In this document: piece by piece, positions 2,492 through 22,722 of the stretch
How positions within the stretch are numbered: the first letter of the stretch is position 1
Layout of the letters: each line of letters starts with the position of its first letter
Translations under genes and position numbers: made by a program
The notes under the pieces: model-generated
Seen by the model: only the letters and a program-made list of their open reading frames with translations
Database searches by the model: none
Told to the model about the DNA's origin: nothing
NCBI GenBank assembly: GCA_029243485.1
Contig: JAQWRY010000052.1
Span: 186,001 to 250,000 of the forward strand
DNA length: 64,000 nt
Direction: 5' to 3'
From: Candidatus Binatia bacterium
Lineage (GTDB): Bacteria > Desulfobacterota > Binatia > UBA12015

Positions 2492-2833
2492 ATGGCGGGC
2501 AAGGAAGAGTTCTACGACGAAGGCCTCGATCTCGCGTTCGACGAGGACTATCCGGGAGCCATCGAGAAGTACAAAGCGGCTCTCGAAGTCGATCCCGGCT
2601 ACACCGACGCTCTCCATGCCCTCGCGATGGCGCACGCGGAAACGGGGAACCTCGACGAGGCGATCGAGGCTGGCAAACGCCTCTGCGACATCGCGCCCGA
2701 CGACATCCTCGCGCACACCAGCCTGTCCACCTTCTACATGAACAAGGACATGATCCCCGAGGCCGAAGCCGAGTCCGCCAAGGCCCGGATGCTCGACTGG
2801 AAGCGCCAATTGAAGGAAGGCGGCGACTCGTGA
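2492..2833 (+). CDS. Small TPR-repeat protein
   Basis: This 113-residue protein consists almost entirely of two to three tetratricopeptide repeats. The pattern of small and aromatic residues is clear: A-F-D-E-D-Y-P-G-A-I-E-K-Y near residue 15, then a second helix pair A-L-A-M-A-H-A-E-T-G-N-L-D-E-A-I-E-A near 44, and a third around 79. TPR units mediate protein-protein contacts. The ATG at 2492 sits just after a GC-rich stretch with no strong ribosome site. The gene overlaps the next one by four bases (GTGA), so the two are probably translationally coupled and may act together. Its place in the luxE/luxC-like run suggests a scaffold or accessory role, which is inference only. Confidence 0.8.
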   Translation: MAGKEEFYDEGLDLAFDEDYPGAIEKYKAALEVDPGYTDALHALAMAHAETGNLDEAIEAGKRLCDIAPDDILAHTSLSTFYMNKDMIPEAEAESAKARMLDWKRQLKEGGDS

Positions 2834-3102
2834 GCGAGGAGCGCGCCGACGAGTACTACGTCGAGCGGCTTCTCTCGCGCGTGAAGCTCGTCGTCGCCAC
2901 CGATGACGACATCCCCATCGAAACGAAGCTCGAAACGCAGCCCATGCTGAAGGAGTTCATCCAGACGTTGAGCTACCCGCCCGACCAGCAGGACCAGGGC
3001 CGCGCGATCGGACAACATCAGTTTCTACTCGATGCGCTCGACGACTACCCAAACTGCACCGCTCTCCTCACCGCCCTGCGGAACTTCGTTCCGTACCTCT
3101 AG
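2830..3102 (+). CDS. Small hypothetical protein coupled to the TPR gene
   Basis: This 90-residue acidic protein is not recognised. It starts at a GTG that overlaps the TPR stop codon in GTGA and ends 8 bases before the luxE-like gene. No signal peptide or membrane segment is visible. It contains no D-S-L phosphopantetheine site, so it is not an acyl carrier protein, which would have been the attractive guess next to acyl-activating genes. The tight coupling upstream and downstream argues that it is a real gene of the run and not a chance frame. It may be a small subunit or adaptor for one of its neighbours. Confidence 0.65.
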   Translation: MSEERADEYYVERLLSRVKLVVATDDDIPIETKLETQPMLKEFIQTLSYPPDQQDQGRAIGQHQFLLDALDDYPNCTALLTALRNFVPYL

Positions 3103-3110
3103 AGGGGTCG

Positions 3111-4229
3111 ATGGCATCAGCCAGCGAACTCGAACGGGTCACGACGAGCGTTCTGGGGTTCATCGACCGCCACGCACGCGCGACCCTCTATCCGGACGCC
3201 ACACTCGACGCCGAGTTCGATCGGGTCGCGCTCGACGTCTTCGAGTTCCAGTACGCGAACTCGCCGGTCTACCGCGCGTTCTGCGATCGACGAGACCGAA
3301 GCCCGGGCCGGGTGCAATCCTGGCGAGAGATCCCCTCGGTTCCGACGTCGGCCTTCAAGTCTCTGGACCTCCACTGTGCCCCGCCGGAGAAGACCTTTCT
3401 CACCAGCGGCACGACGCAAGGACCGGACACACGCGGTCGTCACCACGTTCCGCGCCTCGAACTATACCGACGCTCCGCCCTTCCCCACTTCCGTCGGATG
3501 GTCCTGCCCGACGAAGTGCGCCCCCGACTCGTCGGGCTGGTCGGCGGGCCCGACATCCTGCCGGACTCGTCTCTCAGCCACATGGTCGAGTGGATTCGTC
3601 AGGACGTGTGCGACGGGGACGGCGAGTACCTGATCGACGGCGACACCTTCGACCCGGCGCGCGCGGCCGCGCGTCTCGAAGAGATCTCGAGCGACGGACG
3701 GCCATTGTGCCTGATCGGCGTACGGGTCGCCTTCACGTCCCTTCTCGAACACTGCGCGGCCACCCACCCGATCGAACTCCCAGCGAACTCCCGCATCGTC
3801 GATACCGGCGGCCCGAAAGGCGGACGCGCCCTCTCCGACGCCGGCTTCCTCGCCGCCTGCTGGCACCGACTCGGCGTCTCTGGGTACTACTGCGTGAACG
3901 AGTACGGAATGACGGAGCTCTGCTCGCAGTACTACGACGACGTCCTGGCGGAGCGCTTCGCGGGAACGAATCGAAAACGACGCAAGGTCGGACCGGCTTG
4001 GCTACGCACGCGCGTCGTCGACCCGGTGAGCCTCGAGACGCTCCCCGATGGCGAGACTGGGCTCCTCTGCCACGTGGACCTCGCGAACGCATTGTCGGTG
4101 CTCGCGGTGCAGACCGAGGATCTCGGCGTCCTCGAGGGAAGGCGGTTCGTTCTTCGAGGTCGTGCACCCGGAGCGGAGCCGCGCGGCTGCGCGCTCGCGC
4201 TGGCCGACCTTCTCAAGGGAAGCCCGTGA
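3111..4229 (+). CDS. LuxE-type acyl-protein synthetase
   Basis: This 372-residue protein matches the LuxE acyl-protein synthetase family in length and layout. LuxE activates a fatty acid with ATP and carries it on a cysteine before handing it to the LuxC reductase. The nucleotide-binding signature TSGTTQGPD lies near residue 102, an E-Y-G-M-T-E-L motif near 265, and a conserved GAEPRGC segment ends at Cys360, the position expected for the acyl-carrying cysteine. The gene overlaps the luxC-like fusion by four bases (GTGA), a strong sign of a shared complex. No luxA, luxB or luxD is present, so light production is not suggested. The likely job is to supply acyl groups to the reductase-aminotransferase. 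Confidence 0.9.
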   Translation: MASASELERVTTSVLGFIDRHARATLYPDATLDAEFDRVALDVFEFQYANSPVYRAFCDRRDRSPGRVQSWREIPSVPTSAFKSLDLHCAPPEKTFLTSGTTQGPDTRGRHHVPRLELYRRSALPHFRRMVLPDEVRPRLVGLVGGPDILPDSSLSHMVEWIRQDVCDGDGEYLIDGDTFDPARAAARLEEISSDGRPLCLIGVRVAFTSLLEHCAATHPIELPANSRIVDTGGPKGGRALSDAGFLAACWHRLGVSGYYCVNEYGMTELCSQYYDDVLAERFAGTNRKRRKVGPAWLRTRVVDPVSLETLPDGETGLLCHVDLANALSVLAVQTEDLGVLEGRRFVLRGRAPGAEPRGCALALADLLKGSP

Positions 4230-6667
4230 GCGACGCGATCACGCTGACCGATGCAGAGATCCCGAGCCTCCTGGACCGACTCGTCGCGGCCGGTCGCACG
4301 GCCGCGGCTCTGCCCCGGGAAGAGCGAGTCTCAATCCTCGGGCGCGTCGCCGCGGGCTGGCTAGCCGATCGACCCGCCCTCCAGGAAACCGCAGACGCGA
4401 TCTCCGCGGAGACCGGCTACGCGCCAGCCATGGTCGTGACGTGCCTCGAACGAACCCTCGAGGCATGGAGCACCCGGCCACTCCGTGCGCTTCTCGACCA
4501 GACCCTCGCATCACCCGCGTCGATCGCGACCGCGCCGGAGCTGGTGGTCGCCGTCCTCGCTCAAAACACGCCCGGCCTCGCGATCGCACCGACCTTCTCG
4601 GCGCTCGCGCTCGGATCCGCGATTCTCCTGAAGAGCTCACACGGCGAAGAAACCTTCGCACCGCGGCTAGCCGAGCGGATCCGCGCCGTCGACGCGACTC
4701 TCGGCGCCGCCTGCGAGGCTCACACCTGGCGCGGCGGCACCTCTCTGGAAAAGACCTTGTTCCCGCGAGCATCACGCGTCGTCGTGTACGGCCCGCGCGA
4801 CGCCGTGGAGCGCGCACGCTCTCTCGCTCCAGAGACGGTCCTCTCGTGCGGACCACGCGTGAGTGTCGCGGTCGTCGCCCAGGTGAGCGACATCGATGCA
4901 CTCGCGGTCGCGCTCGCGCGAGATGTCGCTTTCCTCGACCAACGTGGCTGCCTCTCGCCACAGGCGGTGCTGGTCGCGGAGGAACTCGACCGCACCGCGC
5001 TCGGGCACGCCCTCGCGCGCGAGCTCTCGGCGCTCGAGAAAACATGGCCGCGACGGAAGCTCTCCGAGGCCGACGCGGCTTCATTCCGCCGCGCCGTCGA
5101 ACAAGCCGAAGCCCGTGCTCTCGGAGGCGCGGACATCGAACTGCTCGGAGGTGTCGGCGAACCCTGGGCGGTCGTGGTCGACCCACAACCGTCGATCGAG
5201 GCATCACCGCTCGACCGCTTCGTTCGCCTCCACCCGTTCTCGGGTTCGGAGGGTCTCGCGACCGCGCTGGCACCCCTGCGCGGTCTTCTCGATTGCGTCG
5301 GACTCACAGACGGCGGACGCCCGCTCGACGACATCTGTCGCTCCGCGGGCGCCGGGCGGATTTGCCCGATCGGCAAGATGCAGGATCCGCCTGCAGATTG
5401 GCATTCGGGGGGCCGCCCGCCGTTACACGACTACCTCACGTGGAGCGCACGACCCACGACCGATGCGCACGGATCGCTCGGCACCAAACGACGCGGCCGC
5501 TTTCTTCGCCATGTTGCGCAGACGTCGGACAGCCCTCGCGGGATCGACGTGGAGCGCGCACGGGGATCGTGGGTTCATTCGCGCGACGGCCGCCGCCATC
5601 TCGACTTGCTCGCCGGAATCGGCGTCGCCTCGATCGGGCACGGGCATCCTCGCGTCGCAGCGGCGGTCGCAGAGCAGAGCGCCCGGTACACACACGTCAT
5701 GGTGTACGGCGAAGACATCCTCGCGCCCCAGGTCGACCTGGCTGAGCGTCTCGCCGCGATGCTACCGCCGTCGCTGTCGACGACGTACTTCACCAACAGC
5801 GGCGCGGAAGCGATCGAGGGTGCGATGAAGCTGGTCCGAAAGGCGACCGGCCGCAAAGAGATCCTCGCGTTCGAGGGCGCGTACCACGGCGACACCACCG
5901 GAGCGATGGCGCTCGGCGGCAACCCCTTTTACCGCGAACCCTTCGAGCCGTTAGTCGGCCCCGTCGAACATCTTCCCTGGAACGACGACCGAGCGCTCTC
6001 ACGAATCGACGAGCGCACGGCCGCGGTCTTCACCGAACCGGTCCAGGCCGAAGGCGGCGTACGGATCCCGTCGCCGGAATTCCTCCCCGCCCTTGCCCGC
6101 CGATGCCGGGAGGTCGGAGCGCTTCTGGTCTTCGACGAAGTGGTGACCGGCCTGGGTCGCACCGGCACGTGGTTCGGGTTCGAGCACTGGGCCGGCAGCG
6201 CACCGGACGTGATGGTCTTGGCCAAGTCTCTGGGCGGAGGACTGCCGCTCGGCGCCTTCGTCTCGTCGCCCGAGTTGCATCGCGCCCTCTCCGAGGACCC
6301 GCCACTGGGCCATGTAACGACGTTCGGCGGCAACCCCGTGTGCTGCGCCGCCGCGCTCGCATCCCTTGACGTGCTCACCGAGGAGCGCCTTCCTGAGCGA
6401 GCCGGCACGGTAGGTTTGTACTTCAAGGACCGGCTGTCCGAACTCGTGGGCCACGGCGTCCAAGAGGTGCGGGGGATCGGGCTCCTGATCGGACTCGAGT
6501 TCGAGACCCCCAACGGGACGATGGCCTTCGCGGACGGCTGTCGCGAGAACGGCGTCCTCCTCGGATGGACGCTGCACCACGACTGCGTCATCCGACTCGC
6601 ACCACCGCTCACGATCTCCGAAGACGAGATCGATCACGCCCTTAGCGTGATGAAGCGGGTACTCTAG
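4226..6667 (+). CDS. LuxC-type acyl reductase fused to class III PLP aminotransferase
   Basis: One uninterrupted 813-residue frame carries two enzymes. Residues 1-408 are a LuxC-type fatty acyl reductase with an aldehyde-dehydrogenase fold. The nucleophilic Cys242 lies in L-D-Q-R-G-C-L-S-P-Q, and the family ending GRICPIGKMQ...WHSGGRP spans residues 377-398. Residues 422-813 are a class III aminotransferase with a TNSGAEA phosphate loop at 523-529, a FDE motif at 636-638, and the PLP lysine Lys667 in A-K-S-L-G-G-G. The GTG start overlaps the luxE-like stop. Predicted chemistry is acyl-enzyme to fatty aldehyde with NADPH, then direct amination to a primary amine. PigE (prodiginine) and TamH (tambjamine) have this order of activities. 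The stop overlaps that of the opposing sulfatase in the tetranucleotide CTAG. Confidence 0.9.
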   Translation: MSDAITLTDAEIPSLLDRLVAAGRTAAALPREERVSILGRVAAGWLADRPALQETADAISAETGYAPAMVVTCLERTLEAWSTRPLRALLDQTLASPASIATAPELVVAVLAQNTPGLAIAPTFSALALGSAILLKSSHGEETFAPRLAERIRAVDATLGAACEAHTWRGGTSLEKTLFPRASRVVVYGPRDAVERARSLAPETVLSCGPRVSVAVVAQVSDIDALAVALARDVAFLDQRGCLSPQAVLVAEELDRTALGHALARELSALEKTWPRRKLSEADAASFRRAVEQAEARALGGADIELLGGVGEPWAVVVDPQPSIEASPLDRFVRLHPFSGSEGLATALAPLRGLLDCVGLTDGGRPLDDICRSAGAGRICPIGKMQDPPADWHSGGRPPLHDYLTWSARPTTDAHGSLGTKRRGRFLRHVAQTSDSPRGIDVERARGSWVHSRDGRRHLDLLAGIGVASIGHGHPRVAAAVAEQSARYTHVMVYGEDILAPQVDLAERLAAMLPPSLSTTYFTNSGAEAIEGAMKLVRKATGRKEILAFEGAYHGDTTGAMALGGNPFYREPFEPLVGPVEHLPWNDDRALSRIDERTAAVFTEPVQAEGGVRIPSPEFLPALARRCREVGALLVFDEVVTGLGRTGTWFGFEHWAGSAPDVMVLAKSLGGGLPLGAFVSSPELHRALSEDPPLGHVTTFGGNPVCCAAALASLDVLTEERLPERAGTVGLYFKDRLSELVGHGVQEVRGIGLLIGLEFETPNGTMAFADGCRENGVLLGWTLHHDCVIRLAPPLTISEDEIDHALSVMKRVL

Positions 6668-8562
6668 TTCGTCGCCTTGAAGTGATCGACGTCATGCCTC
6701 GTGATCTCGGTCACGGTCGCGCCCAGGCATTGCGCCATGTCGCTGCCGCGGACCTGGACGGTTGCCGACGTCGAGCCCTGAAGAGCTCCGGTGACTCCGT
6801 CGGGAAGCCCGAAGCCGCGCCCGATGATCTTCAACTTTGACTTCTCAGCGTCGCCGCCCTTTAGCTGCATCTTTAAGACGCCGCTCGAGGCGCCGAGCTT
6901 GTCCTTGAACTTGTATCCCTTGCCGTCCGGCGCATCGTTGCCGACCGGTTTCCAGCAATCCTTTCCCGAACACAAATCGCCGGATCGAACCACGCGCATC
7001 TCACCGACGATCACGTCGGCGTCGTCATAAACGCACACCGAGTAGCCGGTGCCGTCCACTGAGACTGGATTCCCGAAATCGGTCTGAACCTGAGCCGGAC
7101 CCTTGGCCAGCTTGATGGTGGCCTTGTCGCCGAGGCCACCGCCCTCGCGCCACTCGAACTTCGCCTTCAGATATCCGACGGTACAGCTCACGTCGGTACG
7201 TGAGGGACACGCCCCATCGCCGGCAGTCTCGACCGCTGTCATCTGTTGAAGGAGCGCATCGTAGGCCGCCTGCTGCTCCTCTGTCATCCCGGCGTACGGA
7301 AGGAGGTTCGCATCCTCGAACGGATTCGCGGTGAGATCAAAGAACTCTTCGTACACGTCGTTCCGCCAGATGAGCTTGTACTGTCCGTCCCGAATGGCCC
7401 GCTCGTGATCTGTGTAAACGATCCCGGCGCCATTCGGCGTGAACTGCTCGGCGTAGGCGTACGGGCGTGCTGACTGGGTGGGCAGCGTTGCATCCGAGAG
7501 GTACGGCACCATGCTGATCGAGTCTTCCGCCTCGGAAACCACGCCCCCGATCTCAGCGATTGTCGCGAAGATGTCCGTCGATTGAACGAAAGCGAGGCTC
7601 TCGGTCCCCGCAACCGCCACGTGCGGGCTCTTGATGATGAGCGGCACGTTGGTGCCACCATCGTACACGGTGCCCTTACCGTGCGACGAGAGGAACGGCG
7701 GGCGCGTCACGCCGGTCGGTGTTCCGTTGTCGCCGATGAAGATGATCGTCGTGTCCGCCAGGATGCTGGCGGGAATCGAGTCGAGAACGTCGCCGATCTC
7801 TCGATCCATGGCCTCGATCATCGCCTCGTATTTCACGTGGCTGCTCGAGCCGGTCGTCACGGCTGTCGTCAGAGGTTGGGTCGGTACGTGAAACGGCGAG
7901 TGGGGTGCGTTGAACGCGAGGTAGACGATCCAGGGAGCCTCGCCGAACTCGGCAATCTTCGCGATCGCTTCGGCCGAGTTGTCGTCCGTCGCGTAGACCA
8001 GATGATTCGGGATCACCGTATCGCTCCCGCCCGCCGAGTTGATGGTCTTCTGCCAGTCTTCGTAATCGCTGATGTTCCCGTTCAACGCGCCGGCGAAGTA
8101 GTCGAACCCGGAGTCGATCGGATGATCAACATCACCGCCCGGTCCGACGTGCCATTTGCCGATCGCCGCGCTGCTGTGGGTCCCCGCGAGGATCTCCGGC
8201 AGAGTCGTCTCGGCGAGATCGAGCACCGCGCCTCCCGGCGTACCGACGCCCGTGCGCATCGCGTGTCGCCCGGTCAGAATCTGTGCACGCGACGGCGCAC
8301 ACAGCGGGTTCGTGTAAGCGTGGCGAAACAGGATTCCCTCGCTCGCGAGCGTATCGAGCCGCGGCGTCGGGCCGTGGTCCGCCCCCTCGCCGACGTGCCC
8401 GTAGGCGAGGTCGTCCGAATAGACGGCAAGGCTGTCCACACCGAGATCGTCTGCGATGATCAAGAGGAAGTTGTCGCGTGCATCGACAGACGGTGCGGCG
8501 CCCATGAAGCCGAGGACGATGAGGCAGAATGCTCGAAAATGGCGGAGAAAACGTAGGTTCAT
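6664..8562 (-). CDS. Secreted arylsulfatase-type sulfatase with C-terminal accessory domain
   Basis: This 632-residue protein begins with a signal peptide (residues 1-28: basic start, hydrophobic core, PSVDA cleavage region). The sulfatase fold follows, with metal-binding Asp38-Asp39 and the formylglycine motif C88-A-P-S-R, so it needs a formylglycine-generating enzyme encoded elsewhere. A GKWH motif lies near residue 135, and IGDNGTPTG supplies another metal-site segment. After about residue 450 comes an extra domain of some 180 residues with several cysteines, probably disulphide-bonded and perhaps for substrate or surface binding. I chose the ATG at 8562 over a TTG 13 codons upstream because the signal peptide starts there. 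The gene reads visibly less GC-rich than its neighbours. Substrate unknown. Confidence 0.88.
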   Translation of the reverse strand: MNLRFLRHFRAFCLIVLGFMGAAPSVDARDNFLLIIADDLGVDSLAVYSDDLAYGHVGEGADHGPTPRLDTLASEGILFRHAYTNPLCAPSRAQILTGRHAMRTGVGTPGGAVLDLAETTLPEILAGTHSSAAIGKWHVGPGGDVDHPIDSGFDYFAGALNGNISDYEDWQKTINSAGGSDTVIPNHLVYATDDNSAEAIAKIAEFGEAPWIVYLAFNAPHSPFHVPTQPLTTAVTTGSSSHVKYEAMIEAMDREIGDVLDSIPASILADTTIIFIGDNGTPTGVTRPPFLSSHGKGTVYDGGTNVPLIIKSPHVAVAGTESLAFVQSTDIFATIAEIGGVVSEAEDSISMVPYLSDATLPTQSARPYAYAEQFTPNGAGIVYTDHERAIRDGQYKLIWRNDVYEEFFDLTANPFEDANLLPYAGMTEEQQAAYDALLQQMTAVETAGDGACPSRTDVSCTVGYLKAKFEWREGGGLGDKATIKLAKGPAQVQTDFGNPVSVDGTGYSVCVYDDADVIVGEMRVVRSGDLCSGKDCWKPVGNDAPDGKGYKFKDKLGASSGVLKMQLKGGDAEKSKLKIIGRGFGLPDGVTGALQGSTSATVQVRGSDMAQCLGATVTEITRHDVDHFKATN

Positions 8563-13218: not shown

Positions 13219-14379
13219 TCAGGTCGGATCCGCCGGAGGAGAGGCGTCCGCGTCCCAATCAAACCGATCGAAGAGGACGCTCAGCCGAGTCCGGATCTCG
13301 TCCGCCTCCAACCCGAACTCCTCGAGGCTGTACGTATGCCCCGACCGGTGCTTGTTCTCCCGCTTGCCCTGTGAATCCAGGTACGCGCGGTACTCGTCGC
13401 TCATCTCCATACCGAGGTCGCCGTAGAGCCGCTGGATCGCGGCCGACACATCCGTCGTCGCTTCCCGATAGTCGACGACCGCGCCCCTCGTTGCGGGGGA
13501 GTTCTCGAGGACCTCCAGCGGATGCATGTAGGTTTCAAAGGACTGGTTCGCGAGAAACCGCAGGCAACGCGCCGTCCGTTCGTCCTCCCAGCCCATGCGT
13601 CGCCACGAACTCTTCAGGAGCTTCAGCAGGCTCGGGATCGTCTCGTAGGGATTACGCATGGTCGTCACGATCCGCGCATCGGGAAACGTCTCGATGAGTG
13701 CCGCCACGCGGCCGGCGAACACGGGATTCTTGGAGAGGTGCACCTTGTCGCCGCCATTCAGATAGATCTGCCGACGGACACACTCCTTGTAGAATCCCAT
13801 CAGACGCCACCGCTTCTTCTCCGACCACTTGTCGACGGAGTAGAAATCGATGTCGCCCATGTAGGGCATCTTCGTGATCCAGAACCCCGAAGCGAGCGAG
13901 TAGTACAGGACGATGTCGTCCTCCTCCGCCTCGGTGAGGCCCATTTGGTGGACCTTGCGGACAGCCGCGTAGTGCTTGTCCTCCCACGCTCTCACCCGGC
14001 GCTCGAGCATCCCGCCGAGGAACTTGCGGTCGAACGCCGCCACGCCACGGATGACCTTCTTCTGAAGGAGAGACGGGAAATACATCTCGTACAGGAGAAA
14101 GACGCTGAAGCGGCCCTCGTCCGCGCTCAGCAAGCGATGGACGAGCGTCGTGCCGCTGCGAGCGTGCCCGACCACGAAGATCGGCTCTTTGATCTCCGTC
14201 TTCCAGAGCCCCGGAAAGAGGATGCCGTCGAGGAAGAAGCAAATTGCGTGGAACGTCGAGACCAGGGGCACCGCGATGAGCAGAATCGAGAGAAAGTAGA
14301 GCCGCACCCCGATCTGCTTCTCTCGTGAGGCGAGGCGGATCAGCTGGAACCAGTTCTCGAAACTGAAGTGAAAGATCAT
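13219..14379 (-). CDS. Sulfotransferase family protein with N-terminal hydrophobic segment
   Basis: This 386-residue protein carries both PAPS-binding signatures of sulfotransferases: the 5'-phosphosulfate loop in VVGHARSGTT near residue 75, and the 3'-phosphate motif IVTTMRNPYETIPS near 247. A hydrophobic stretch around residues 27-52 suggests a membrane anchor. The length and the internal LSKNPVF region match bacterial sulfotransferase-3-like proteins that sulfate lipids or glycans. The ATG at 14379 follows a GGAGACCGA ribosome site and is preferred to upstream starts. Its stop lies 98 bases from prfB on the same strand. A second sulfotransferase of a different subfamily is divergent from it, so the two may share a promoter region. 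Confidence 0.88.
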   Translation of the reverse strand: MIFHFSFENWFQLIRLASREKQIGVRLYFLSILLIAVPLVSTFHAICFFLDGILFPGLWKTEIKEPIFVVGHARSGTTLVHRLLSADEGRFSVFLLYEMYFPSLLQKKVIRGVAAFDRKFLGGMLERRVRAWEDKHYAAVRKVHQMGLTEAEEDDIVLYYSLASGFWITKMPYMGDIDFYSVDKWSEKKRWRLMGFYKECVRRQIYLNGGDKVHLSKNPVFAGRVAALIETFPDARIVTTMRNPYETIPSLLKLLKSSWRRMGWEDERTARCLRFLANQSFETYMHPLEVLENSPATRGAVVDYREATTDVSAAIQRLYGDLGMEMSDEYRAYLDSQGKRENKHRSGHTYSLEEFGLEADEIRTRLSVLFDRFDWDADASPPADPT

Positions 14380-14492
14380 TCGGTCTCCGACGACGACGCG
14401 GAATCGCACGGATCCTATACACGAACGCTCGACTACACCGCGAGCCACGAACGTTTGCTCCCGACCAGACTCACGGGTAGGTTTCGCCCGCC

Positions 14493-15176
14493 ATGGCCGA
14501 GTTGCTTCGAACGGGCGCCGTGTTCATCCACGTCCCAAAGTGCGGAGGCAACTGGGTGCGCGAGGCCCTCCGGGACCAGGGCCTCTGGCGGTGCCGGATC
14601 GGGTACAAGCACTCGACGCCCGAGCGCATCGCCGATGTCTGGCAGTTTCACCGTTGGCAGTTCATCAAGCACCTACCGACCCGTCCCGACGTCACGACGG
14701 GGAAGCTTCGACGCGCCTTCAAGTTCAGCTTCGTTCGCAATCCCGTCACCTGGTACGAGTCGTGGTGGAAGTTCATGGCCGGCGACTGGCACCCCTGGGA
14801 GGTCGGGCGCTGGCATCCCCAGCGACCGATCGACGACTGTGGCGACGACGACTTCAACCGCTTCGTCGAAAACGTCCTCCGCGAGCGCCCGGGCTACGTC
14901 AGCGAAATGTACCGCTGGTACGTCGACGGTTCGGACTTCGTCGGCCGCGCCGAGCGACTCGCCAAAGACCTTCAGGCGGCCCTGCGCGAGGCCGGCGCCG
15001 AAGTCGATCTGGACGCGCTTGGGCGGGTGCCCGCCGCCAACGTGAGTGAGCCGCGGTGCGGGCTGCCTACGTGGGAACCTGCCGTCCTCCAACGGCTGAT
15101 CGACTCCGAGGCCGAGGCGATTCGGAAGTTCGGTTACGAGGACGCGGTCGCCGCGCTCACAACCGCATCGTCGTAG
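14493..15176 (+). CDS. Sulfotransferase (carbohydrate sulfotransferase-like)
   Basis: This 227-residue protein has the compact sulfotransferase-2 layout: FIHVPKCGGNWVREAL near residue 11 is the 5'-phosphosulfate-binding loop, and FSFVRNPVTWYESWWKF near residue 78 contains the 3'-phosphate-binding arginine and serine region. The tryptophan-rich middle (residues 83-105) is typical of this group. No signal peptide is seen, so it should act on a cytoplasmic or membrane-associated acceptor. It is divergently transcribed from the previous sulfotransferase (113 bases between starts) and converges with a cysteine-rich secreted protein 8 bases after its stop. Confidence 0.85.
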   Translation: MAELLRTGAVFIHVPKCGGNWVREALRDQGLWRCRIGYKHSTPERIADVWQFHRWQFIKHLPTRPDVTTGKLRRAFKFSFVRNPVTWYESWWKFMAGDWHPWEVGRWHPQRPIDDCGDDDFNRFVENVLRERPGYVSEMYRWYVDGSDFVGRAERLAKDLQAALREAGAEVDLDALGRVPAANVSEPRCGLPTWEPAVLQRLIDSEAEAIRKFGYEDAVAALTTASS

Positions 15177-21708: not shown

Positions 21709-22722
21709 CTACTCGCGGAGGATGACGTCCAGGGCGAACCGGAGGCGCTTCAGGACCCGGCCGAGGGCGTTCTCGTGGATGTCCTTCCGAAGCCGTACGA
21801 GAACCTTGCGCTGCATGGAGTAACGCAGGGGCGCCTTGCGCTTACGCGGCGTGCCGCCCGCACCTTCGGCCTCGTCGAGCTGCATCATGATCTCTTCGCG
21901 CGGATACCCGAGCGTCTCCAGATCTGCCGGGTCGAGGGCGTCGACCAGATTTCGCACCAACGCCAGGGTCTCGGGATTCGCGGCGATCTCGCCCGCCCAG
22001 CTGCCGATCGAAGACGTGACCGGACGGTCGTGCTGGTGCACGCCGGTGGGATCCCCGAGCCCCTCGAAGCTCTCGCCGGACTCCTGGTAGTCGATCGCCG
22101 AGGAATCGAACGGAATGTCGAGGTACTCACAGATACCGCGAAAGCCCTTCTCCGGATCGGCCACGAATTCCTCGTATCGGACGTGCGCCAAGGCAACCGG
22201 CTTCTCACGCACCATCTTCGCCAGAGCCGGAACGTACCGCTCAAGGATCGGATTATGGCTGAGCGCCACCTCCCACTCGCCATCGAAGAAGGAATTCACG
22301 TACGACGTGAGAATCGCGAGCGGGTGCCGGGTGAGGATGACGTACTTCGCGTTGGGATAGAGCTTCGTCAGGAACGGAAGCACCAGCGCGTAGGCCGGCG
22401 TCTTGTCGAGGAAGTACCGCTTCTTCTCGCCGGCCGAATCGAGCATGCGGCCGTACATAGAGTCCGCATAGGCTCGAAGCGCCTCGAGGTAGTCGTCCTC
22501 GCCCTGCGGGAGGTCCTCCACGAATTCGTGGACCGCCTGCTGCACGTTGAAGGGGTCGTACGGCGCCTTTTGGACGCTGGCGTAGTAGCCCAGGTGCGCG
22601 AGAGGAGTGATCAGGTGCGGCTCCGCCCGGCCGTAAACGGCCGGATGCGCGGAGAGGATGCGCGCTAGAAGGGTCGTACCCGAGCGCGGCGCACCCAAAA
22701 GGAAGACGAGCCGTTCCTGCAT
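21709..22722 (-). CDS. Sulfotransferase family protein
   Basis: This 337-residue protein has the PAPS-binding loop at its very N-terminus (LVFLLGAPRSGTTLLARIL, residues 5-23) and the 3'-phosphate-binding motif VILTRHPLAILTSYVNSFF near residue 130. This subfamily includes bacterial homologues of tyrosylprotein and lipid sulfotransferases. The C-terminal 50 residues are strongly basic (RKRKAPLRYSMQRKVLVRLRKD) and may contact a membrane or an acidic acceptor. I chose the ATG at 22722 over a GTG at 22758 because the P-loop strand begins there. It follows the membrane sulfatase gene on the same strand at 85 bases, so addition and removal of sulfate may be linked. Confidence 0.87.
   Translation of the reverse strand: MQERLVFLLGAPRSGTTLLARILSAHPAVYGRAEPHLITPLAHLGYYASVQKAPYDPFNVQQAVHEFVEDLPQGEDDYLEALRAYADSMYGRMLDSAGEKKRYFLDKTPAYALVLPFLTKLYPNAKYVILTRHPLAILTSYVNSFFDGEWEVALSHNPILERYVPALAKMVREKPVALAHVRYEEFVADPEKGFRGICEYLDIPFDSSAIDYQESGESFEGLGDPTGVHQHDRPVTSSIGSWAGEIAANPETLALVRNLVDALDPADLETLGYPREEIMMQLDEAEGAGGTPRKRKAPLRYSMQRKVLVRLRKDIHENALGRVLKRLRFALDVILRE

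Follow-up and report, generated by a model that had tools for sequence, protein, structure and literature searches.

A LuxE-type gene that overlaps a single reading frame joining a LuxC reductase to a class III aminotransferase raises the question of which reaction the three enzymes would carry out together. The locus lies in a 64,000-nucleotide stretch of DNA, referred to here as the window, from Candidatus Binatia bacterium (GCA_029243485.1, contig JAQWRY010000052.1, positions 186,001–250,000, forward strand). The original prediction was that LuxE and the fusion convert a fatty acid to an alkyl amine. We consider it rather probable that this gene pair specifies three enzymes acting in sequence from a carboxylic acid, probably a lipophilic one, to a primary amine. 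The order acid, aldehyde, amine fits the active sites and the co-occurrence of the genes, and the acid is probably a fatty one. Comparisons at the sequence level establish three enzyme families, intact catalytic residues, a GTGA overlap, class-wide co-occurrence and fusion in both directions.

The LuxE gene and the LuxC half of the fusion

The features of the locus, all on the plus strand, are:

3111..4229, +, LuxE-type acyl-protein synthetase, 372 amino acids (Pfam LuxE; 7xc6 LuxE chain; conserved Cys)
4226..4229, +, GTGA start/stop overlap of LuxE and the LuxC-aminotransferase fusion (read from the sequence)
4226..6667, +, LuxC-aminotransferase fusion, 813 amino acids, single open frame with GTG start (Pfam; family genomes)
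4313..5437, +, LuxC acyl reductase domain, residues 30–404, with Cys242 (Pfam LuxC; 7xc6 LuxC)
5540..6664, +, class III PLP aminotransferase domain, residues 439–813 (Pfam; residue counts)

The GTGA sequence and the Pfam matches confirm the 4-base overlap between LuxE and one 813-residue frame. The codons of the catalytic residues were verified at 4188–4190 (Cys360 of LuxE), 4949–4951 (Cys242) and 6224–6226 (Lys667), and conservation of all three across the loci of the class bears out the earlier claim that the active sites are intact. The nine neighbors annotated in the window, including a weakly PMT-like membrane protein, a TPR protein, a sulfatase and two proteins without a Pfam match, give no pointer to the product, and a viral-contig scan found no viral sequence. 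The recurrence of certain neighbors reflects conserved housekeeping synteny at the locus, with genes that, from their sequence, we take to be prfB, alaS and recA.

The LuxE protein matches the Pfam LuxE family (PF04443) with 48.3 bits versus a cut-off of 24.9. This is the single match in the genome, and none of 14 control genomes contains a match over the cut-off. The NCBIfam model of luminescence LuxE yields 62 bits, far under its cut-off of 550. The only clear solved relative is the LuxE chain of complex 7xc6, a Cys of which aligns with Cys360. For residue counts across the class loci, LuxE and LuxC domain matches below 150 bits and aminotransferase matches below 300 bits were left out. Cys360 is conserved in 84 of 84 LuxE rows and is probably the acyl-cysteine; the Gly of the nucleotide loop (TSGTT, residues 98–102) is present in 80 of the 84, the remaining four being gaps. 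A search for the LuxD family matched nothing in the genome, and nothing in the search control either.

Residues 30–404 of the fusion match Pfam LuxC (PF05893) with 137–139 bits versus a cut-off of 21. The same family matches in 9 of the 14 control genomes, in 7 of them over its low cut-off, and at three further places of the Binatia genome with 21–33 bits, so weak LuxC matches mean little. The class LuxC profile aligns with the 7xc6 LuxC chain with a score of 138 bits, Cys242 is paired with a Cys of that chain, and the catalytic Cys occurs in 94 of 95 class rows, with one gap. The LuxC assignment rests on sequence, because the 50 Foldseek rows shown for the fusion are all of the aminotransferase fold. 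The predicted structure of the fusion has good domains (mean pLDDT 90) and a pTM of 0.58, and therefore supports no claim on channeling.

The aminotransferase half and the proposed reactions

Residues 439–813 match Pfam Aminotran_3 (PF00202) with 341 bits. The fold search with the predicted fusion model matched 1vef and others among its best 50 rows, and the nearest solved structures to this half include putrescine aminotransferase. No cut-off is reached among the best 25 NCBIfam models, the highest-scoring being acetylornithine transaminases with 357 and 340 bits (cut-offs 457 and 410). PLP-binding Lys667 and Asp637 at the pyridine site are each present in 101 of 102 class rows with one gap, Glu609 in 102 of 102 and Arg790 in 98 of 102, the latter two being identified by motif. 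Asp556, in the motif YHGDT (codon 5891–5893), is invariant in all 102. At the equivalent position the ArgD of the same genome carries Arg, as do 1vef and 7nn1, the two best solved relatives. By this comparison the substrate site is of a kind other than carboxylate-binding. The genome's own BioA likewise has Asp at this position, so the residue excludes little beyond a nearby carboxylate. ArgD, BioA and HemL are separate genes elsewhere in the genome.

In the proposed line, LuxE would activate a free acid with ATP and carry it, bound as a thioester, on Cys360. From there the acyl group would pass to Cys242 of the LuxC half and be reduced with NAD(P)H to an aldehyde, which the aminotransferase half would convert to a primary amine on PLP-Lys667, with glutamate as the likely donor. 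The acid would most likely be fatty or otherwise lipophilic, with no carboxylate near the aldehyde. We infer each reaction and its direction, the chain length, the channeling and the fate of the amine.

A hint of lipid, the only one, comes from the surroundings of the trio: in 5 of 15 loci of the genome family f2, a gene of one protein family lies closely 3′ of the aminotransferase, and the one member scanned is an SCP2-type lipid carrier by Pfam. Against the proposed line, loci L080 and L081 have, next after the aminotransferase, genes from a single cluster whose scanned member is a zinc alcohol dehydrogenase. No product-using gene was recognized beside the trio among 14 neighbor proteins scanned.

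The same chemistry could act on a short or polar acid, such as a hydroxy or amino acid, and yield a diamine or small amine; we regard this as the less likely version, with perhaps one chance in five. Asp556 could bind a substrate that is positively charged at one end, and putrescine aminotransferase is among the near structures. Flagellin-glycosylation clusters contain LuxE-LuxC pairs as well, so the pair need not act on long fatty acids. Against a short or polar acid stand the SCP2-type gene and two PF02784-type decarboxylase matches in the genome; PF02784 covers the ordinary polyamine enzymes and DAP decarboxylase alike, and the two matches may be either.

It is improbable that the aminotransferase belongs to amino-acid metabolism as an ArgD or LysJ paralogue fused to LuxC without a shared intermediate. 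Acetylornithine transaminases are indeed its best NCBIfam matches, but both scores fall under their cut-offs, a true ArgD with the key-site Arg is encoded elsewhere, and the aminotransferase co-occurs with LuxE and LuxC. ArgD identity itself was rejected on 340 versus 410 bits and on the replacement of the carboxylate-binding Arg by Asp in every class row.

Similarly low odds attach to a role in which the LuxE-LuxC aldehyde serves another purpose and is cleared or recovered by the aminotransferase, or in which the line runs toward amine breakdown. Aldehydes are toxic and transaminations reversible, and in Bacteroidota and kin close relatives of the aminotransferase lack LuxE neighbors, so this aminotransferase has roles outside the trio. 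LuxE is present in 5 of the 14 genomes of Bacteroidota and kin searched (one more genome is titled Nitrospirota). ATP-driven activation by LuxE would, however, point from acid to aldehyde, and breakdown would need none. The biosynthetic acid-to-amine line with a lipophilic substrate remains the preferred reading.

Fusion and co-occurrence across genomes

LuxE followed by the LuxC-aminotransferase fusion was found in 11 of the 14 genomes of the window's family; in two of the other three the fusion is split by contig ends, and one draft has LuxE only. All genomes are drafts, but independent assemblies share the frame and a single change on the tree suffices for the fused rows (support 65), so an assembly or gene-calling artefact is very unlikely, with a probability close to nil. 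The search for LuxE beside such fusions in other genomes thus succeeded within the window's family only. In Binatia genomes outside it LuxC and the aminotransferase are separate genes, an outcome that had been named beforehand as counting against the prediction; it does so only by half, since they are still partners, as neighbors or by co-occurrence.

Among 148 Binatia genomes, 99 contain all three genes, 8 contain one or two (107 contain any) and 41 contain none; by gene, the aminotransferase is present in 102, LuxC in 103 and LuxE in 105. Families f15 and f16 are without the trio. These genomes are mutually related, and the Fisher test of co-occurrence is descriptive only. In 82 of 102 fetched aminotransferase loci all three genes share a strand within the sequence retrieved. 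LuxC and the aminotransferase are fused in 11 of these loci and LuxE and LuxC in 5; the other 66 have three genes, and in 12 of the 66 two of the genes are ~0.5–5 kb apart. The aminotransferase stands apart in genomes G029, G050, G064 and G081, where LuxE and LuxC are still together. In a second phylum a separate trio in identical gene order was found in 5 of 20 fetched LuxE loci. Co-occurrence, conserved order and two alternative fusions support the assignment of LuxE, LuxC and the aminotransferase to a putative functional unit.

Three of the nine outgroup rows of the tree (L020, L023 and L027) were almost surely read from the wrong strand, minus-strand matches having been left unturned in those loci, and the outgroup placement was therefore not used; L301, read likewise, gave no family. 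Row B_L104, labelled Bacteroidota by mistake, is from Binatia. The wider scan for relatives used two aminotransferase peptides and the best 80 of at least 596 matches, and is no census.

Relation to known systems

Both LuxC and LuxE of luminous bacteria (7xc6) are related to the present proteins over most of their length, with aligned cysteines; that system has no aminotransferase, and its line ends at the aldehyde for luciferase. LysZ/LysY/LysJ and ArgB/C/D follow the same order of carboxylate activation, reduction to a semialdehyde and class III transamination, but employ a kinase, another reductase and a carboxylate-bearing substrate.

PigE of prodigiosin synthesis, like the fusion, is a single chain with a thioester reductase at its N-terminus and a class III aminotransferase at its C-terminus, and leads from thioester through aldehyde to amine. 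The published account relates the PigE reductase to acyl-ACP reductase and GluTR, and proposes channeling as well as ornithine or arginine as amino donor (PMC8341465). TamA and TamH of tambjamine synthesis (YP1) share with the trio acid activation, reduction and transamination. They differ in that activation is by an adenylation-ACP di-domain protein and, in TamH, the aminotransferase is N-terminal and the acyl-ACP-reductase-type domain C-terminal; TamA-TamH converts fatty acids to amines with L-Glu and accepts C7–C14 fatty aldehydes (PMC9594044).

The NCBIfam PigE model aligns with the fusion over the aminotransferase part only, with 280 bits versus a cut-off of 850, and the reductase half is LuxC; membership in the PigE/TamH group was rejected. 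PigE and TamH, originally cited as known joins of a reductase to an aminotransferase, are thus analogues, because their reductase is described as of the acyl-ACP reductase type and not LuxC. The best reading is that the trio is an independently assembled variant of PigE/TamH-type chemistry, outside that group. Among the matches listed in searches of the openly licensed literature on LuxC/LuxE with an aminotransferase or fatty amines, or on the pair outside luminescence, no LuxE-LuxC-aminotransferase line was found. From limited literature searching, we are aware of no report of a long-chain amine in this phylum.

It is a tentative and rather unlikely extension that a primary long-chain amine, or a lipid with such an amine as its head, is a near-core cell component of most Binatia and of some members of the second phylum, made through a dedicated LuxE-LuxC-aminotransferase line that arose independently of PigE/TamH. 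If the proposed line is correct, it would be a compact route from free acids to primary amines that operates without a carrier protein, and relatives of bacterial luminescence enzymes would, together with an aminotransferase, constitute a general acid-to-amine route across an uncultured phylum.

The LuxE gene and the LuxC-aminotransferase frame

The host of the window is a 6.5-Mb draft genome in 88 contigs, of the class Binatia (Candidatus Binatota at NCBI). The original prediction described a LuxE gene overlapping by four bases a single 813-residue frame that joins a LuxC reductase to a class III aminotransferase, and this architecture was confirmed by the sequence and by Pfam.

Features of the two genes
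3111–4229, plus strand: LuxE (Pfam LuxE, 48 bits)
4226–4229, plus strand: GTGA overlap of the LuxE end and the fusion start (sequence)
4226–6667, plus strand: LuxC-aminotransferase fusion, 813 residues, GTG start (open frame, Pfam)
Fusion residues 30–404: LuxC domain (Pfam LuxC, 137 bits)
Fusion residues 439–813: Aminotran_3 domain (Pfam, 341 bits)

Genes for a small TPR protein and a 90-residue protein lacking a Pfam match (2492–3102) adjoin LuxE and turn up next to it in several families, in many cases on the other strand. A minus-strand sulfatase gene (6664–8562) meets the fusion stop against stop on a shared CTAG (6664–6667). The same window contains a sulfotransferase-family gene (13219–14409, Pfam Sulfotransfer_3) and, by eye, further sulfotransferase-like genes at 14493–15176 and 21709–22722.

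Searched against solved proteins, the class LuxE profile matched only the LuxE of the LuxC-LuxE complex 7xc6, and the class LuxC profile gave two matches, 7xc6 LuxC (138 bits) and, at 29 bits, an aldehyde dehydrogenase. The catalytic cysteines of LuxE and LuxC align with cysteines of 7xc6, which we take to be the acylated ones. Pfam LuxE yielded a single match in the window's genome and exceeded the cut-off in none of 14 control genomes. Pfam LuxC matched in 9 of the 14 controls, and three further weak matches (21–33 bits) occur in the window's genome. Weak domain matches were removed before residues were counted. The three catalytic residues predicted to be intact proved near-universal in the class alignments: LuxE Cys360 in 84/84 rows, LuxC Cys242 in 94/95 (one gap) and aminotransferase Lys667 in 101/102 (one gap). 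Aminotransferase Glu609 is present in all 102 rows and Arg790 in 98, the others having one Ser and three gaps.

Distribution and locus layout in the class

LuxE followed by one LuxC-aminotransferase frame occurs in 11 of the 14 genomes of the window's family. Contig ends break the array in two more (G005 and G009), and the draft G003 has LuxE only. The 13 fused rows of a 192-row sequence tree require one change (support 65), and the tree appears compatible with a single origin of the fusion.

With thresholds of E ≤ 1e-90 for the aminotransferase and E ≤ 1e-30 for LuxE and LuxC, profile searches of 148 class genomes detected the aminotransferase in 102, LuxE in 105 and LuxC in 103. All three are present in 99 genomes and none in 41, f15 and f16 being examples of families that lack the line. 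The eight genomes missing one or two members (G003, G021, G025, G061, G065, G072, G073 and G079) are all drafts, split into 260 to 1200 contigs. Together the three genes form a strong pattern of joint presence, though not one of independent events, since the genomes are related.

The aminotransferase locus was fetched for all 102 genomes that bear it, the window included. The trio lies on one strand in 82 loci: 11 with LuxC and aminotransferase fused, 66 with three genes, and 5 with LuxE and LuxC in a single frame (G037, G047, G054, G055 and G056). Twelve of the 66 have a gap of ~0.5–5 kb between two members, sometimes with intervening genes. Another 14 loci hold LuxC and aminotransferase together (2 fused, 12 separate) with LuxE absent from the fetched stretch, and 11 of these 14 lie within ~160 bases of the contig end. 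The remaining six have the aminotransferase without LuxC in the fetched stretch; in two (G025 and G065) the contig extends under 1 kb upstream, and in four (G029, G050, G064 and G081) LuxE and LuxC adjoin each other away from the aminotransferase, forming one 830-residue open frame in G064.

Occurrence outside the class

A search from two aminotransferase peptides gave at least 596 matches, the best 80 of which comprise 4 Binatia, 1 titled Nitrospirota, and 75 others, nearly all titled Bacteroidota, Balneola or Rhodothermia kin. The aminotransferase gene was called in 74 of these 75 stretches. LuxE was found in none of the 75 within the fetched stretch, and two LuxC matches of 15–16 bits are attributed to chance or cross-matching. 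Pfam LuxE matched in 5 of 14 genomes of Bacteroidota and kin and in the Nitrospirota-titled genome. The close aminotransferase relative of Bacteroidota and kin (loci L097–L172) stands alone and mostly carries YHGST, as against YHGDT in the trio.

In the phylum of the Nitrospirota-titled genome, the LuxE profile matched 32 of 295 genomes, and LuxE loci were fetched from 20 of the 32. Five loci (L281, L282, L285, L287 and L288) hold LuxE, LuxC and aminotransferase in that order, and in genome G160 the latter two lie elsewhere, apparently on the same contig as LuxE. In the remaining 14 the fetched stretch contains LuxE but neither of the other two genes; one of these, L280, is broken by the contig end. 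A second LuxE-type group of ~400–500 residues (L290–L299) has neither partner in the fetched stretch, occurs twice in tandem in L290 and L292, and by eye lies mostly near proteins resembling cobalamin-binding radical SAM enzymes.

Predicted chemistry and relation to PigE and TamH

In the proposed line, LuxE would convert a free acid and ATP to an acyl-thioester, LuxC would reduce the thioester to an aldehyde, and the aminotransferase would convert the aldehyde to an amine. In related enzymes, an Arg is described as holding the carboxylate of the substrate, whether acetylornithine, ornithine or GABA (PMC4244111). All 102 trio aminotransferases have Asp556 at this site, opposite the Arg of 1vef and 7nn1 in alignments; within the window's genome, ArgD has Arg and BioA has Asp. 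The trio enzyme falls under every NCBIfam cut-off among the models listed. The genome encodes four other class III enzymes, ArgD (433 bits), BioA (503), HemL (531) and a PRK07480-like enzyme whose 446 bits lie below the model cut-off of 510. Given Asp556 in place of Arg and an enzyme distinct from ArgD, BioA and HemL, a substrate free of any carboxylate close to the aldehyde is expected, with glutamate as the likely amino donor.

The neighbours offer a thin hint of the substrate or product. In family f2, a gene of one sequence cluster lies 3′ of the aminotransferase on the same strand in 5 of 15 loci, with 14–26 bases between the two profile matches, including G029, where LuxE and LuxC are elsewhere. 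The one member scanned belongs to the SCP2 lipid-carrier family, and the cluster profile was built from four of the five counted members. Such a neighbour slightly favours a lipophilic substrate or product, and a gene of a zinc alcohol dehydrogenase sequence cluster, 3′ of the aminotransferase in two other loci, counts against it.

The main text of the Binatota genome paper contains no LuxC, LuxE or aminotransferase terms (PMC8262859), and the line was not recognised among the papers listed on LuxC or LuxE with aminotransferases, with fatty amines or outside luminescence. Deletion of a Riemerella LuxE homologue, outside luminescence, is described as slowing growth (PMC4772473). TamA-TamH converts fatty acids to amines with L-Glu as donor (PMC9594044), PigE converts a thioester to an amine (PMC8341465), and both reductases are described as being of the acyl-ACP-reductase type (PMC9594044, PMC8341465). 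The same chemistry seems to be reached with other parts, because the reductase here is LuxC and the activator LuxE, and as judged from sequence the LuxE-LuxC-aminotransferase line is a predicted functional analogue of PigE and TamH and, by reductase descent, not a member of their group.
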